Assembly (NCBI GenBank): GCA_947164965.1
Contig: CAMUYR010000006.1
Coordinates: 79,705 to 143,704, forward strand
DNA: 64,000 nt
Direction of reading: 5' to 3'
Source: an uncultured Prevotella sp.
GTDB lineage: Bacteria; Bacteroidota; Bacteroidia; Bacteroidales; Bacteroidaceae
Shown: one piece after another, positions 18,797 through 25,718 of the stretch
Layout of the letters: each line of letters starts with the position of its first letter
Numbering within the stretch: position 1 is the stretch's first letter
Program-made: the position numbers and the translations under genes
The notes under the pieces: generated by a model
The model's database searches: none
Seen by the model: the letters and a program-made list of their open reading frames with translations, nothing else
What the model was told of the DNA's origin: nothing

Positions 18797-19639
18797 ATGA
18801 AAGAATCATGCTTAAAAAGTCTCCTGTTTCTCGTGGCAATGGCCCTGTCTGTGCCTTCGTATGCGCAGAAGATGGATTTTTTAGGACCTGACAAGAACAA
18901 CCAGAAGGTCATCAAACGATACAACCGCTATTATCACAAAGCATTTGCCCCAGGTATGGGAGGCATGGGAATAGGTTATACCGCCGTGTTTGGCGTGAAG
19001 AAAAATTCGATCATGTCGACCGACGACATCGAAGTGAACGTTGTCAAGCGATGGGTTCAGGATGCTGCCATCAATGATATGGAAAACCGCTTGTACTTCA
19101 TTGAAATCAAGAACAAGTCGGACAAGACTCTGTATATCGACAAGAGTCATTGCTACAGAGTATACCACAATGGCACAAAATACTGTTACTTTGACGCCGA
19201 ACGAGATGCCAAACGAAACGTTCAGCGCATCATGGCCATTCCGCCGCACACGAAGAAAAACCTGTCGGACTATCATGCAGAATTAATCAAAAAGGAGAAA
19301 TACTCAGAACTCAAAATCATCGACTATCCAGAGGAATTCAATTGGGATGCAAAAGAGGCCGGAATCTGTGAAGGTTTTCTGGGCCAATACGAAGTCAGGT
19401 CGTTCACAGAAGACAAGTCGCCCTATTACCGATCGTTCGTGATTTCATACTCGAAGGATGAGGATTTCTCTACCTACTCCCTGCTGACCATCAATTTCTA
19501 CATACGTCAGCTGATTGGTTGCTACTATCCTGAGCTGTATCGCGACAACGACATCTTCGACCGGTTCGGAGGCGATGAGTATACCATTACCAATTGTGAG
19601 TACGGGTATGGAGGCGTCAACCGGTTCAGAAGATTCTAA
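18797..19639 (+). CDS. Exported protein of unknown function
   Basis: Signal peptide MKESCLKSLLFLVAMALSVPSYAQ; upstream TACTTTTG box at 18759-18766; no family recognised. Confidence 0.75.
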   Translation: MKESCLKSLLFLVAMALSVPSYAQKMDFLGPDKNNQKVIKRYNRYYHKAFAPGMGGMGIGYTAVFGVKKNSIMSTDDIEVNVVKRWVQDAAINDMENRLYFIEIKNKSDKTLYIDKSHCYRVYHNGTKYCYFDAERDAKRNVQRIMAIPPHTKKNLSDYHAELIKKEKYSELKIIDYPEEFNWDAKEAGICEGFLGQYEVRSFTEDKSPYYRSFVISYSKDEDFSTYSLLTINFYIRQLIGCYYPELYRDNDIFDRFGGDEYTITNCEYGYGGVNRFRRF

Positions 19640-19686
19640 ATAAATAGCCCCACTGTCATCGCTGTCATCGTCATCGCTGTCATCGA
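19638..19686. repeat. Left copy of the ~49-bp direct repeat bracketing the primase island
   Basis: AAATAAATAGCCCCACTGTCATCGCTGTCATCGTCATCGCTGTCATCGA; 38 bp (19649-19686) identical to 23845-23882. Confidence 0.95.
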
Positions 19687-19716
19687 TGTAACAAAAGAAC
19701 CGTCCCTCTGTTACAT
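19686..19716. repeat. Hairpin ATGTAACA-N15-TGTTACAT (REP-like)
   Basis: Perfect 8-bp inverted repeat with loop AAAGAACCGTCCCTC. Confidence 0.7.
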
Positions 19717-19728
19717 AAAGAATATCTC

Positions 19729-22155
19729 TCAAGCCGCATGGCCTGAGAGATATTTCTGTGTTTTCCGATACATCTTCGTGACTTCGTCATAGCTGATGAA
19801 TCCACGCTTGGTCCATTGTGCCAACTGATCCTTGGGGTTTGGATTCTTCTTACCCTGCTGAATACGCATGGAGCGGCATTCCTCACGGGTAAACTCATCG
19901 GATAGCAGGTCGAGCATGTTGGCCATACCGCCATGAGCAGCCTTCTTCTCCACCTCCATGTCTTCATTGAGGGCTTCGCTGAATAAGCTCATCTTAACCC
20001 ACATGTCGTAGTCAAAGGCCCAACGGCAGAATTCTTCAATATCACGCGACCATTTGTAGCCGTTCATGACGTAGAGAATACAAGCCTTACGGAAGGCGAT
20101 GACGGCACCACGACGGGCCAATATCCGATAACCGTCATCGTCGAACAAGGCGGCACGTTCAACCCCCAGCTTACACAGGTCACCAGCCATCTTCTTAGCC
20201 TGCTGACAGACAATGAGTCCCCTGTCCTTCGCTTCGTCAAGCAGTTGCAGATAGGCCATCATCTGCTGCTCGTACTTCTCGTCGTAACGCTTGTAGACGG
20301 GTATTTCACCATTGTCCTCAATCTCTGGAATAGTACAGAAATTCAGGCGCGACACGGTACCATCGTTCACGTTCTTGCGGAAGAATCGGATGGCGGAAGC
20401 AGGCGTGGTCGATGCATTCCAACACCAGCGCATAGGAGCACGGGCTGTCACCGACTGAGCACCAACGCGCTCTTGTCCATACATATCCGTATCGAAGTTA
20501 CGGCAAATAATGCGACTCACCATCTCCCTTGAGCTACCGCCCGCCATCTTCGACAGCATCTCCACTTCGTCCATACGCGTATAGAGACACTTATGGCCTG
20601 CTCGCTCGGCATCAGCCAGACGTTGTGTAAAAGCGGCATTGGTCATATCGGAATCGTTCACCTGGATACAGATGTCCGTGGGACGAACCATACCTTTCTT
20701 GTTGGCCGATTTGCTATTCTGCTCGTCCTTCCACTGTTGCTCCTGCTCACGGCAGAGGGCGTCACGGGCCATGATGTCCTTCAGACAGACGTCGATGGGT
20801 TTCTTGATACACGACTTACCTGTCGACATCGGTGCCACCAGCACATTCATCATCGTAGCCTCCATCTCCGAATTGTCAGCATACTCCAGTTTCACACCAC
20901 CCATGCGTGTAGCAAAGGCTGGAAAGATAGCGTGAGCCATAGCCGCACGACAGTGGTCGGGTACCTTCGAGATGGCAACACGAATGGGGGTAGGCAAACG
21001 GTGGGGCATCTCAGGCTCCTTCATCAGCGACTCGCGACTCTTACCCTGCTCCATATTCAGTCGGCGACGGCAGAGATCGATAGTCAGCTTTATCTTCGGA
21101 CTCATCGCACCTGCCTGCTTACGCTTGCATGCATTCTGAATGGTTTCCGTCACACGCGTGTGATCCTCACCAAAATCGGGCATTACCTGACGAATCCACT
21201 GAGGGTCATCGTTGCAGACGTGGCGAAGATGGCAACTCATTGAGAAGATGAAGTCGTTCCTGTTGCCGTGCTCTGGTGCTCCACCCAGCTGATCGGCCAA
21301 CTCCTCGACAATCATCGTGTAAGGAATGCCGTTGTACTCCGTGGGATAGTCGCTCAGGGAAATTTTTCCCTCAGTGGCAACAGGGGAAATTTTTCCCTCG
21401 TTGGCAACCGATGCAATTTTGCTTTCGTTGGACGTCGGCGCAATTTTGCTTTCGTCTTCCGATGTCAGGGAAAATTTTCCCTCACGTCCATCAATGTCCA
21501 ATCCACGCTCGGCATAGGCCTTGCGGCGCAGGGCGATCTCCTCGTCCGAGAGGCGCGTCTGCCATTCAGGGCTGGTGTAGAGCTGCGAGCAGCTGTCTAC
21601 GATGTAGATCATGCGCTCAGGCGAGCAGCAGTCTTCATCGAAGTCAACACCCAGCGCATCGGTATAGGCCAACTGGGCTTCCCTGATGGTCTTGCCCACA
21701 GGGATGCGGATGTCGATGTGCAGCTTCTTCGATGCCGAATACTCCATGTGGAGCAACATGCCCTGCCACTCGCTGTCTTTCTTATTATTAAGAATGAACG
21801 CACGTGTGCGCGCGATGTCCACCTGGCTGGCATCGTCGATGTCAACGCAGGTCTGGAACGTGAACTCCTCGGGCAAGATACAATCCTGCGCACGATGGTC
21901 GTCAGCGAAACGGAAGTAGTGCGGACAGCGGAAAGGCAACTGGCTCTTCAAATTGCGGCGCTCGTCCACATTCTCCGTAGCGCGAATACGGGTTATCAAA
22001 CTTGCCACCTCGTCAGACTTGGTGACGTTAACAAACTCCTCGAGGCTAGCCTCGAACACTTGGCCTTTCTGGCCACGAACCTTGCGGTTCATTGCGATTG
22101 ATTTTTTCAATGTCATCATATCCATAATTTTTCTTTTCTTTTTTTGATTAAACAT
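19729..22155 (-). CDS. VirE_N (BT4734-like) / DUF3987 protein; putative primase-helicase-like protein
   Basis: Walker A-like VAPMSTGKSCIKKP; Walker B-like LYTRMDEVEML; N-terminal CVDIDD, SASKKLHIDIRI and CSPERMIYIVD resembling PrimPol motifs I-III. Start uncertain (22155 or 22125); the 22236 start lies upstream of a likely -7 box. Confidence 0.8.
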   Translation of the reverse strand: MFNQKKKRKIMDMMTLKKSIAMNRKVRGQKGQVFEASLEEFVNVTKSDEVASLITRIRATENVDERRNLKSQLPFRCPHYFRFADDHRAQDCILPEEFTFQTCVDIDDASQVDIARTRAFILNNKKDSEWQGMLLHMEYSASKKLHIDIRIPVGKTIREAQLAYTDALGVDFDEDCCSPERMIYIVDSCSQLYTSPEWQTRLSDEEIALRRKAYAERGLDIDGREGKFSLTSEDESKIAPTSNESKIASVANEGKISPVATEGKISLSDYPTEYNGIPYTMIVEELADQLGGAPEHGNRNDFIFSMSCHLRHVCNDDPQWIRQVMPDFGEDHTRVTETIQNACKRKQAGAMSPKIKLTIDLCRRRLNMEQGKSRESLMKEPEMPHRLPTPIRVAISKVPDHCRAAMAHAIFPAFATRMGGVKLEYADNSEMEATMMNVLVAPMSTGKSCIKKPIDVCLKDIMARDALCREQEQQWKDEQNSKSANKKGMVRPTDICIQVNDSDMTNAAFTQRLADAERAGHKCLYTRMDEVEMLSKMAGGSSREMVSRIICRNFDTDMYGQERVGAQSVTARAPMRWCWNASTTPASAIRFFRKNVNDGTVSRLNFCTIPEIEDNGEIPVYKRYDEKYEQQMMAYLQLLDEAKDRGLIVCQQAKKMAGDLCKLGVERAALFDDDGYRILARRGAVIAFRKACILYVMNGYKWSRDIEEFCRWAFDYDMWVKMSLFSEALNEDMEVEKKAAHGGMANMLDLLSDEFTREECRSMRIQQGKKNPNPKDQLAQWTKRGFISYDEVTKMYRKTQKYLSGHAA
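21354..21484 (-). repeat. Five tandem 27-30 bp coding units (nonapeptide E[GS]K[IF][AS]x4) within the DUF3987 gene
   Basis: Protein EGKFSLTSED-ESKIAPTSN-ESKIASVAN-EGKISPVAT-EGKISLSD; DNA dyads GGGAAATTTTTCCC at 21357 and 21384, GCAATTTTGC at 21413 and 21440, GGGAAAATTTTCCC at 21468. Confidence 0.9.
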
Positions 22156-22200
22156 ATTTTTACTTCTCACTTTGCGGGCACCGGCCGGGTTTCCGTGATG

Positions 22201-22208
22201 CAAAGTTA
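22201..22208 (-). promoter_or_regulatory. Probable -7 box (TAACTTTG) of the DUF3987 gene
   Basis: CAAAGTTA on + strand. Confidence 0.5.
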
Positions 22209-22262
22209 ATAATAAAAATAAGGTATATGCAAACAATTAAACCACTTTCCTACCGTCGGAAG

Positions 22263-22305
22263 AAAGTTGGAAAAAGTTCGGAAAAGTTCGGAAAAACTAT
22301 GGAAA
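22263..22305. repeat. Helically phased 10-bp repeats (AAAGTTSGGA)
   Basis: AGTT at 22265, 22275 and 22285: AAAGTTGGAA/AAAGTTCGGA/AAAGTTCGGA/AAAACTATGGAAA. Confidence 0.75.
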
Positions 22306-22333
22306 TCTCAGGAATTCCTTCGGCATATTTTTG

Positions 22334-22393
22334 GGTAACAATTGCTACCATTAAAGGTAACAATTGCTACCATTAAAGGTAGCAATTGCTACT
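22334..22393. repeat. Three 22-bp tandem repeats with palindromic core (GGTARCAATTGCTACCATTAAA)
   Basis: Copies at 22334, 22356 and 22378; the third abuts the stop codon of the 22394-22990 CDS. Confidence 0.92.
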
Positions 22394-22990
22394 TCAGAAG
22401 TCGGCGCTGATGGTGCGCATCAAGATGGGTGCAAACTCGAGGGCTATCTGGTTGCAGATGATGCGCTCGGCGGCTAGCGTAGGGTTGATGTATGACGTTT
22501 CCGGTTTGGGCCATTGCGACCACGGTTGTTCATGTTTCATCAGGTATTCGTAGTCACCATGCTTGCGCACGGTGTCGCGACCCTTGTCGGGAATCATTGA
22601 GCAGATGATGGTATCGAAGCGGTTTGGCGTCAGTTGAACGAGGATGAGTTCGTCAGTCATCACGCGCATGACGTGTGCCCACGTCCAGTTCTCTTGTTTC
22701 GAGGCAATGACGTCGTTTATGTGGCGAACGATTTCTATCAGCTTCAGAGCCGTTTCGGGCTGACGATAGCGGGGCATGAACTCACGCGGCATCTTCTTAG
22801 GGTCAATCTCCTGGCCTTCACGCAGTCGCTTCAACAATTGGCGGGCTTCTTCGGCACAATTCATCTCCTCGCCCCACCGCTGTATCAGTTCGATGTAGGG
22901 TCGGCGCTGCGCTTCAGTAGCCTTCGTCTGCGCAATGCCCAGAACGTATTCTACGGGTATGGGGTCAATCCCAGTCAGACTAGTCTTCAT
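22394..22990 (-). CDS. Uncharacterised protein of the primase island (ORF B)
   Basis: Full-length ORF, start MKTSLTGIDPIPVEYVLGIAQ, overlaps ORF A end; no family recognised. Confidence 0.65.
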   Translation of the reverse strand: MKTSLTGIDPIPVEYVLGIAQTKATEAQRRPYIELIQRWGEEMNCAEEARQLLKRLREGQEIDPKKMPREFMPRYRQPETALKLIEIVRHINDVIASKQENWTWAHVMRVMTDELILVQLTPNRFDTIICSMIPDKGRDTVRKHGDYEYLMKHEQPWSQWPKPETSYINPTLAAERIICNQIALEFAPILMRTISADF

Positions 22991-23657
22991 GCTTGAATCC
23001 CTCAATGTGTTGGTCAGCGTTCAAACGGTTGGTTACCTCCGTCAATTGGCCGTCGTTTGTCTGGAAGCGGATGTCGATGATGTCATCATAGAAATGACCT
23101 GTGTATACGCTCAACTGATAGCTCAGGTCATGATAAACCTCATCGGCAGTACCTTCCGACTGGAAATAGAAGCCCTGAAAGCGATTGCTGCGGACGCGAT
23201 AGATGGCATCGGGATCGCCTGAGAATCCTTTCATACACCAAACGTCCAGCGTGGCCTGATAGTGCATCACCTGCTTTTCCTCGTCCGTTTCAGGGTCCTT
23301 CTCCACGGGCATCGTTATCTTGCAGCCCAGCAGCTTCATGCGTTCCAATATATATTCGGCACCAGCGGGCTCCAGCTGTTGGAAATCGTACTCAATCATC
23401 TTGGCTACCCAGTAGAGGTTGGTACCGCCCGCAGGACAAAGCACGCGGCAATCGTGCAGCTCGGCATAGTCGATGAGCGTGCCCGCAGGAAATTCCTCAC
23501 CTTCGTCGATGACGGGATAGGAAGCACTGTCCATAATGCCTCCTGCTGCCTCATCGTCGTCGTTCCATACCATCAGCGTGGCAATGTGCCTGCCAACCTT
23601 GCCCCCAGCGTATATCACGTTGTAAGGCGCATCGAGTTTTATCAGTTTCGAATTCAT
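22980..23657 (-). CDS. Uncharacterised protein of the primase island (ORF A)
   Basis: 225-aa ORF with upstream TACCTTTG box (23663-23670 minus); no family recognised. Confidence 0.7.
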   Translation of the reverse strand: MNSKLIKLDAPYNVIYAGGKVGRHIATLMVWNDDDEAAGGIMDSASYPVIDEGEEFPAGTLIDYAELHDCRVLCPAGGTNLYWVAKMIEYDFQQLEPAGAEYILERMKLLGCKITMPVEKDPETDEEKQVMHYQATLDVWCMKGFSGDPDAIYRVRSNRFQGFYFQSEGTADEVYHDLSYQLSVYTGHFYDDIIDIRFQTNDGQLTEVTNRLNADQHIEGFKHED

Positions 23658-23662
23658 GACTG

Positions 23663-23670
23663 CAAAGGTA
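23663..23670 (-). promoter_or_regulatory. -7 box of the island operon
   Basis: CAAAGGTA on + strand = TACCTTTG on - strand, immediately upstream of ORF A. Confidence 0.6.
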
Positions 23671-23700
23671 GTGTTTTATTTTCAATCCACCAAATTTTTC

Positions 23701-23756
23701 GCTGACGATGACACCGATGACACCGATGACACCGACCTATTTTTGTCATCGTTAGC
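23701..23756. repeat. Iteron-like array: three GATGACACC units inside an inverted repeat
   Basis: GATGACACC at 23707, 23716 and 23725 (9-bp period); GCTGACGATGACA (23701-23713) opposite TGTCATCGTTAGC (23744-23756), one mismatch. Confidence 0.9.
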
Positions 23757-23769
23757 AGGGAAATCAGTT

Positions 23770-23806
23770 CTTTATATATATAATATATATATTATATAAT
23801 ATAAAG
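23770..23806. other. 37-bp near-palindromic AT-rich segment (candidate unwinding element)
   Basis: CTTTATATATATAATATATATATTATATAATATAAAG. Confidence 0.75.
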
Positions 23807-23833
23807 CTACTGCAAATTGCTCCCACTACGGCA

Positions 23834-23882
23834 AAATAAACAGGCCCACTGTCATCGCTGTCATCGTCATCGCTGTCATCGA
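23834..23882. repeat. Right copy of the ~49-bp direct repeat bracketing the primase island
   Basis: AAATAAACAGGCCCACTGTCATCGCTGTCATCGTCATCGCTGTCATCGA; two mismatches to 19638-19686. Confidence 0.95.
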
Positions 23883-24576: not shown

Positions 24577-25718
24577 GGTCTAAAACTGTTGATGAGTGCC
24601 ACTACGCGTGCTGCTTCATCGTCCGTCAGTGCAGGATGGCAGGGGATGCTGAGCTCTTCGCGATGGATGCGCTCGGTGATGGGCAATTCTGACAATTCTG
24701 ACAATTCTGACAGCAAATTCTGTGCACCGTTGGCATAGCAGCGTTGCTGATGGGGCGGAATGGGATAGTGTATCTCCGTCTGCACACCATTGTCGGCCAG
24801 ATACTCTCGCAGCTCGTCGCGATGGGGACATAGCACAGGAAAAATATGATATACCGAATCGCGAGGAGAGAGCAGTATTCTCACATGGTCGTTGATTACT
24901 TCTCGTTCATAGCGAGCAGCAATCTCCTTGCGGCGCTGGTTGTCGGCATCCAGATGGGGCAGCTTAGCCAGCAGAATGGCGGCTTGTATCTCGTCGATGC
25001 GCGAATTGCGGCCCTGATAGTCGAAGACGTATTTTTCCGAAGAGCCGTAATTGCCCAGTGCCCGCACCACAGCAGCCAGCTCCTCGTCGTCAGTCGTAAT
25101 GGCTCCTGCATCGCCAAGGGCCCCAAGGTTCTTGGTGGGGTAGAAGCTGTGACCAGCGGCATCACCAAGGGCTCCCGTCCTTGTTTGTTGCGATGGCATC
25201 GCAACAGACTGAACAGACGGAACGAAGTGGCAACCATGAGCCTGCGCATTGTCCTCGATGAGCTTCAGGTGGTGCTGGCGGCAGATATCCCCTATCCTAT
25301 CGGTGTAGGCACAGCGGCCATAGAGATGCACAATCATGATGGCTCGGGTGCGAGGCGTGATGGCCTGCTCAATGAGGCTGTCGTCAATCTGGAGGGTATC
25401 TATCGAGGGCTCAACCAACACGGGCTTCAAGCGGTTTTCCGTAATGGCCAGTATCGAAGCGATGTAGGTGTTGGCCGGCACGATGACCTCGTCGCCCTCC
25501 TGCATCACCCCCATCTCCTTGTAGGCCCTGAGAATCAGCGTCAGCGCATCGAGTCCGTTGCCACAGCCAATGCAGTGGCGGGTGCCGATATACTGCGCAT
25601 AGGCCTCCTCGAAACGGCGCGTATAGTCACCCTTCAAGTACCACCCGCTCCTGAGCACCTCGTCGGCAGCATGCTCGTAGGGTTTATTGATTGCTTGTAA
25701 ATCAAGATACTTAATCAT
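24558..25718 (-). CDS. DegT/DnrJ/EryC1/StrS sugar aminotransferase (FdtB-like)
   Basis: MIKYLDLQAINKPYEHAADEVLRSGWYLKGDYTRRFEEAYA ... GHSFYPTKNLGALGDAGAI; 4-bp overlap with the upstream gene. Confidence 0.92.
   Translation of the reverse strand: MIKYLDLQAINKPYEHAADEVLRSGWYLKGDYTRRFEEAYAQYIGTRHCIGCGNGLDALTLILRAYKEMGVMQEGDEVIVPANTYIASILAITENRLKPVLVEPSIDTLQIDDSLIEQAITPRTRAIMIVHLYGRCAYTDRIGDICRQHHLKLIEDNAQAHGCHFVPSVQSVAMPSQQTRTGALGDAAGHSFYPTKNLGALGDAGAITTDDEELAAVVRALGNYGSSEKYVFDYQGRNSRIDEIQAAILLAKLPHLDADNQRRKEIAARYEREVINDHVRILLSPRDSVYHIFPVLCPHRDELREYLADNGVQTEIHYPIPPHQQRCYANGAQNLLSELSELSELPITERIHREELSIPCHPALTDDEAARVVALINSFRPGKQYI

Follow-up and report, generated by a model that had tools for sequence, protein, structure and literature searches.

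The phage satellites of Vibrionaceae called PICMIs are islands of about 6 kb that carry a DUF3987 primase and 17-bp direct repeats, and deletion of the primase lowers their copy number (PMC10803314). According to PMC5862659, DUF3987 is a predicted helicase of mobile elements with AEP primases, for which the same text gives D-x-D and H motifs. No description of the element family reported here was found in the open papers searched on DUF3987, BT4734, primase-linked iterons, and Prevotella MITEs, nor any statement of a DNA site of action for DUF3987-type proteins. Iteron origins of the RSF1010 type contain hairpins that are recognized by a primase. REP and BIME sequences are short, dispersed palindromic units, often intergenic, and the RAYT proteins are Y1 transposases.

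The window analyzed here is a whole 64,000-nucleotide stretch of DNA from an uncultured Prevotella sp. (contig CAMUYR010000006.1). It contains a 4.2-kb element, for which PICMIs are the closest described islands. A sequence-only reading of the window had proposed positions 23701–23882 as an iteron replication origin. We hold with moderate confidence that a small integrated mobile element has its left end in this segment, and that an array of short words (B), an AT-rich palindrome, and an opposed array (C) form the initiation site, for replication, mobilization, or both, of the element's own primase-helicase.

Repeats and palindrome of the left end

The word GATGACACC occurs in exactly three copies, at 23707, 23716, and 23725 of the window sequence, within an inverted repeat whose 13-bp arms, GCTGACGATGACA (23701–23713) and TGTCATCGTTAGC (23744–23756), pair at 12 of 13 positions. 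Both this arrangement and the oppositely oriented array of the same family at the boundary had been noted in the sequence-only reading and were confirmed. The opposed TGTCATCG array occupies 23850–23882, and its 33 bp recur as an identical copy in unchanged orientation at 19654–19686, 4.2 kb away. With up to two mismatches allowed, TGTCATCGCTGTCATCG has six occurrences in the window, compared with 0.03 expected from shuffled sequences; these repeats are not due to chance. Direct repeats of one word, regularly spaced and adjoining an AT-rich segment, are the layout of an iteron origin.

The palindrome had been described as 37 bp of A and T only. An AT palindrome is present; however, it has C and G at its ends, is imperfect, and is perfect only over its 22-bp core. 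Its counterpart in many relatives is a perfect palindrome of 36–42 bp. As single-stranded DNA, the segment (187 nucleotides) has a predicted fold of −45.4 kcal/mol (z = −8.7), which was equaled by none of 200 shuffles. A promoter motif equivalent to TACCTTTG is also present in relatives.

Table 1 Features of the element and of a nearby single array (window coordinates)
Feature	Coordinates	Strand	Description	Basis
Whole element	19638..23881	-	Bounded by direct repeats B and B′; genes on - strand	Limits of homology between window, L017, and L019
B′	19638..19686	-	Right-end direct repeat; words CGATGACA x3 and GTGGGGCTATTTATTT; + strand reads AAATAAATAGCCCCACTGTCATCG...	
Primase-helicase	19729..22116	-	Predicted AEP primase and DUF3987 helicase, about 795 aa; frame open to TTG at 22236	
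ORF2	22394..22990	-	198 aa; all-helical model (pLDDT 83); no known family	
ORF1	22980..23657	-	225 aa; no known family	
Promoter motif	23663..23670	-	TACCTTTG, agrees with TAnnTTTG, the Bacteroidetes -7 promoter consensus; located between C and ORF1	Consensus match only
C	23701..23756	-	Inverted word array; three GATGACACC on + strand, one opposed TGTCATCG	
Palindrome	23770..23806	none	AT-rich, imperfect; 22-bp perfect core 23777-23798	
B	23834..23881	-	Array of the left end; forms a direct repeat with B′ and is opposed to C	
Single array in degT	24687..24713	+	Other word family (TTCTGACAA x3), in frame within the neighboring gene; separate from the window element but a similar type of unit	

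Borders and genes of the element

The element ends in 48-bp direct repeats, B and B′. DNA similarity between the window and the loci L017 and L019 begins at the start of B or up to a few bases earlier and stops at TATTTATTT of B′; no similarity was found in the 300 bp outside these borders, where the three loci are unrelated. The agreement between L235 and L244, which have a word unlike that of the window, likewise extends only from B into B′. The shared limits of homology therefore place the window element at about 19638–23881. Because it has a matching copy at 19.6 kb, the right-hand array of the segment is one of two terminal direct repeats and not only part of an origin. The stop codons of two convergent genes lie on either side of the element, which has orf284 and an uncharacterized gene for 222 amino acids as its flanks. 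The word of the window recurs in L017, between GH115-like genes, in L019, at a different locus, and in L114 (on a contig shared with L018), near degT.

ORF1 and ORF2 matched no family in Pfam, PHROGs, or NCBIfam. Structure searches gave no match for ORF2 and only weak RNase H-like matches for ORF1 (E at least 0.04); since no acid is conserved in its first strand either, no catalytic activity is claimed for ORF1. No integrase was recognized among the element proteins by domain searches, and no transposase domain was found in the element with Pfam, PHROGs, or NCBIfam. The idea of an RNA element was rejected after a search of Rfam without a match, as was a defense role of the three core proteins, which had no match in PADLOC.

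The DUF3987 match of the window helicase is below the Pfam cut-off (16.8 of 27 bits, E = 0.004), and the distant relative in L145 passes the cut-offs for DUF3987 and BT4734-like_N. The window protein contains AEP-like D-x-D and S-x-x-H motifs and a Walker A GKS. AEP motifs I and II and Walker A are conserved in alignment A3, in which D92, D94, G433, and K434 are invariant and H133 is present in at least 90% of the rows. Motif III (hD/E) reads RMIYIVD in the window and most rows, and is non-acidic in L140 and L145. Proteins of the DUF3987 type were found in 84 of 150 genomes of the genus Prevotella, often in several copies. The more distant DUF3987 islands L237 (G000 C4:117500–125500), L140, and L141, from a shared genome, contain genes named by eye as HicB-like, lysozyme-like, and DUF5675-like; in L141, 95-bp direct repeats surround the helicase and lysozyme genes.

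Other repeats accompany the element. A REP-like TGTAACAAAAGAACCGTCCCTCTGTTACA of another dispersed-repeat family adjoins B′ at 19686–19718, with similar copies in G000 C31, C4, and C14. The interval between the helicase gene and ORF2 contains a tandem palindromic repeat, GGTAGCAATTGCTACCATTAAA (22335–22392), and L128 has a similar inverted repeat, GCTACTATTAATGG. The helicase linker encodes repeated GGGAAAATTTTCCC-like palindromes (21364–21485), and this motif also occurs upstream of B in L017, L019, L134, L145, and L235.

Conserved layout and changing words

The same map has been found in about 20 elements: B, a spacer of roughly 100 to 300 bp, the opposed C, ORF1, ORF2, the helicase gene, and B′. 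The genes flanking these elements are mostly unrelated, as are their loci in Prevotella genomes. The word is 8–9 bp long and falls into about a dozen families, with B, C, and B′ in agreement within one element. Homologs with 50–57% identical helicases keep the layout with the words GATGACAAT, ATGACAAAT, TTCTGACAA, and CGTGACAAA, and 30 further loci add TTCACAGA, TTGTGACAA, ATCACAGT, ATCCCAGT, GTGACTTC, CGTTGCCAA, TGTTTCAT, and others. The match between B and B′ exceeded all shuffled controls in 23 elements. Array matches within an element exceeded those to other word families in 17 of 23 cases for the direct B–B′ comparison and in 19 of 23 for the inverted B–C comparison. The sequence-only reading had named a lack of repeat conservation beside homologous genes among the outcomes that would refute it; the arrays and the AT-rich segment are conserved there, so the reading was not refuted on this point.

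The B–C spacer contains 64–77% AT in all elements. It includes a strong palindrome in 14 of 30 (at most 1 of 60 shuffles as good) and is AT-rich only in the remainder. Across eight palindromes, 16 of 19 arm positions differ and 151 of 152 cells pair; therefore, pairing has been maintained despite sequence change. Some relatives have an additional opposed array, A, upstream of B. A profile search with ORF1 gave matches in 37 of 399 genomes of the genus and in no further genome among 295 drawn from the order. As far as searched, in genomes that are mostly drafts or MAGs, the element family appears to be confined to Prevotella chromosomes.

Several relatives depart from the common arrangement or share neighborhoods. 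An orthologous element occupies the locus of the window element in L016 (1484–6000), with an inverted ORF1–ORF2 segment and, next to the palindrome, an IS66-like insertion. An element with another word, CGTTGC, ends beside the 3′ end of lutC in L244 (5213–5520), as in L016, and the window element lies one gene away; it is possible that the lutC neighborhood is an insertion hot spot. About 50 bp directly upstream of B are alike in L017 (3533–3582) and L235 (1100–1160), across different word families, which may mean that the element extends further to the left or that both were inserted at a common target repeat. A DUF3990 gene of L114 is located between ORF2 and the helicase gene, outside B–B′ there.

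Association of the word with the primase-helicase

Word similarity, taken from non-homologous array pairs only (for example, B against C), was compared with protein identity in 28 elements. As correlations among related sequences from draft genomes, the values for DUF3987 identity were rho = 0.69, with partial correlations of 0.58 given ORF1 (p = 0.002) and 0.78 given ORF2. Given DUF3987, the word had a partial correlation of 0.01 with ORF1 (p = 0.43) and −0.09 with ORF2 (p = 0.81) in the same elements. The association with the helicase was 0.49 (p = 0.002) in a non-redundant set of 19 elements.

Exchanges of modules bear on the same point. The elements L218–L221 combine a window-like ORF1 (about 60–71%) with a helicase of another clade (32–35%) and the word TTCACA. 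L224 and L145 have a common helicase (79% at the DNA level) and the word TTGTGACAA, and a HIRAN gene replaces ORF1 in L145. An exception is the pair L234 and L238, with helicases that are 85% identical and words that differ. The left arrays adjoin ORF1, yet they match the most distant gene, that of the helicase. Since the words follow the primase-helicase and neither ORF1 nor ORF2, the element's own primase-helicase is the likely reader of the words. ORF1 was rejected as the word reader on the basis of its partial correlation.

Geneless copies and single arrays

The genome of L018 and L114 (G151) contains one full element and about seven geneless copies of ~420 bp located between genes, one of them rearranged. 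Their layout is array A, 200 bp, B, palindrome, and C. No clear target duplication was seen by eye at these copies. A comparison of the joined flanks of three copies with 198 genomes gave no exact empty site, because only coding flanks aligned. A clean empty site was also not found at a lolA-like neighbor in G040, nor was a circular form of the element in genomes that were mostly drafts or MAGs. One geneless copy, L073, abuts a Y1 fragment, which raised the possibility of a RAYT/REP origin; this was rejected because other array-bearing genomes (G215, G205, and G020) gave no match in a Y1_Tnp search.

Single arrays were found inside genes. The helicase linker has one in L017, L115, and L145, a rhamnosidase-like gene has one in G095, and others are in degT, which has a loop of normally 12 amino acids. 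This loop bears an array in the window (TTCTGACAA), G081 (decayed), G040 (CGATGACA), and G083 (TTCAAC-type); the loci with arrays of different words in other species are L250/L147, L251, and L262. Such single arrays may represent scars of excision or small insertions that arose independently. No relatives of ORF1 were found in viral contigs, and the helicase had no match in the plasmid set and one weak match in the phage set. The 4,086-bp phage record MT839699, which is linear, unverified, and unannotated, matches the helicase with 22% identity, and one relative of the helicase is on a viral contig.

Proposed role of the segment and alternative explanations

The word arrays are probably the DNA address that the primase-helicase reads to begin copying or moving the element. 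It would bind the words of B and C and melt or extrude the AT segment between them, so that DNA synthesis could be primed and started at this site. The copied DNA might then be excised, resolved, or inserted between B and B′, and the site would have a joint role in replication and mobilization. In having opposed arrays on both sides of an AT segment, the site resembles origins at which two helicases are loaded. By analogy with plasmid incompatibility, diverged words would stop elements within one genome from cross-reacting. The evidence from sequence is the layout, its conservation, the borders, the match of word and helicase, and the spread in the form of complete elements, geneless copies, and single arrays.

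The origin interpretation of the segment is partly supported. Iteron-like arrays around an AT-rich segment are conserved, and the words track the primase-helicase in the 28 elements, as would be expected of a helicase that reads an origin. The sequence-only reading did not anticipate that the same arrays terminate a mobile element, have spread as geneless copies and single arrays, and vary in word between elements. A role in transposition ends or recombination must therefore be taken seriously, either instead of an origin or in addition to it. The geneless copies and the single arrays are explained by transposition ends no less well than by an origin. That the arrays are transposon ends only is rather doubtful in our estimate. 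The segment would then not be an origin, and a trans-acting or unrecognized nuclease, which could be ORF1 or ORF2, would cut the arrays or hairpins. This would account for the G151 copies, the borders at B and B′, the arrays within genes, and the strong single-strand fold, and it could draw on the weak RNase H likeness of ORF1 and on the target duplication not being clearly seen by eye; however, the element has no transposase domain, its words follow the primase-helicase and neither of the other two proteins, and several array-bearing genomes are without a Y1 transposase. A further, unlikely reading is a transposon-like class without a known recombinase, in which the primase-helicase would read private end arrays and drive copying and re-insertion, and spent copies would leave single arrays, in some cases in frame within genes. 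Since its words would diversify together with the helicase, several such elements could reside in one genome without cross-reaction.

We consider it quite unlikely that the element is a minimal phage satellite similar to PICMIs, which would use the primase-helicase and a B–C origin after infection by a helper phage and be excised between B and B′. The size, primase, repeats, and primase-dependent copy number of PICMIs (PMC10803314), the helicase relative on a viral contig, and a match of the DUF3990 gene close to the element in L114 (8504–8980) to the PADLOC candidate defense models PDC-M13B/M10A are in agreement with a satellite; however, the element proteins include neither an integrase nor AlpA, and relatives are absent from the plasmid set and nearly so from the phage set. 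It is highly improbable that C (and B) are bound for autoregulation of an ORF1–ORF2–helicase operon, with B′ as the remnant of a duplication. C precedes ORF1 by roughly 40–100 bp, both in the window and in close relatives, with the TAnnTTTG promoter motif in between, but an operator leaves B′, the borders, the geneless copies, and the arrays in unrelated genes unexplained, and it is the operon's most distal gene that the words follow. An initiation site of the primase-helicase at the left end of the element remains our preferred reading.

Comparison with known systems

The elements constitute natural matched pairs of helicase and word, with module swaps; therefore, the recognition code of an AEP primase-helicase is directly testable. 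In addition, they indicate where short in-frame gene insertions and dispersed intergenic repeats in Prevotella may come from.

The predicted primase-helicase shares its protein class, AEP motifs with a DUF3987-type P-loop ATPase, with the AEP-DUF3987/VirE/DUF927 fusions of mobile elements and the BT4734-like AEP family. By contrast, the accessible part of the source describes no cis-acting site for those fusions, and the window protein is below the Pfam cut-off (PMC5862659). The BrickBuilt MITE of Porphyromonas gingivalis is likewise a small intergenic element of Bacteroidales with tandem repeats; however, its repeats are 23 bp long and its terminal inverted repeats IS-like, and it is without a primase gene, word families, and the palindrome layout (PMC4596501). 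Transposons with MITEs of that type have terminal inverted repeats and a target duplication; in the window element, B and B′ are direct repeats, and no clear target duplication was seen by eye at the G151 copies. Like REP and BIME sequences, the family includes short dispersed palindromic units, but its elements have no Y1 gene. With RSF1010-type origins the window element shares iterons, an AT-rich segment, a palindrome, and its own primase and helicase; it differs in being chromosomal, in having arrays also at the two ends of a mobile element, and in having opposed arrays on either side of the palindrome. PICMIs have in common with the window element that they are small chromosomal islands with a DUF3987-type primase, short terminal direct repeats, and genes of unknown function. 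However, PICMIs have int and alpA and sit next to fis (PMC10803314), whereas the window element has no recognized integrase or AlpA among its proteins and is flanked by orf284 and the 222-amino-acid gene. The window element is further set apart from PICMIs by its own word arrays around an AT palindrome, its geneless derivatives, and its Prevotella host.
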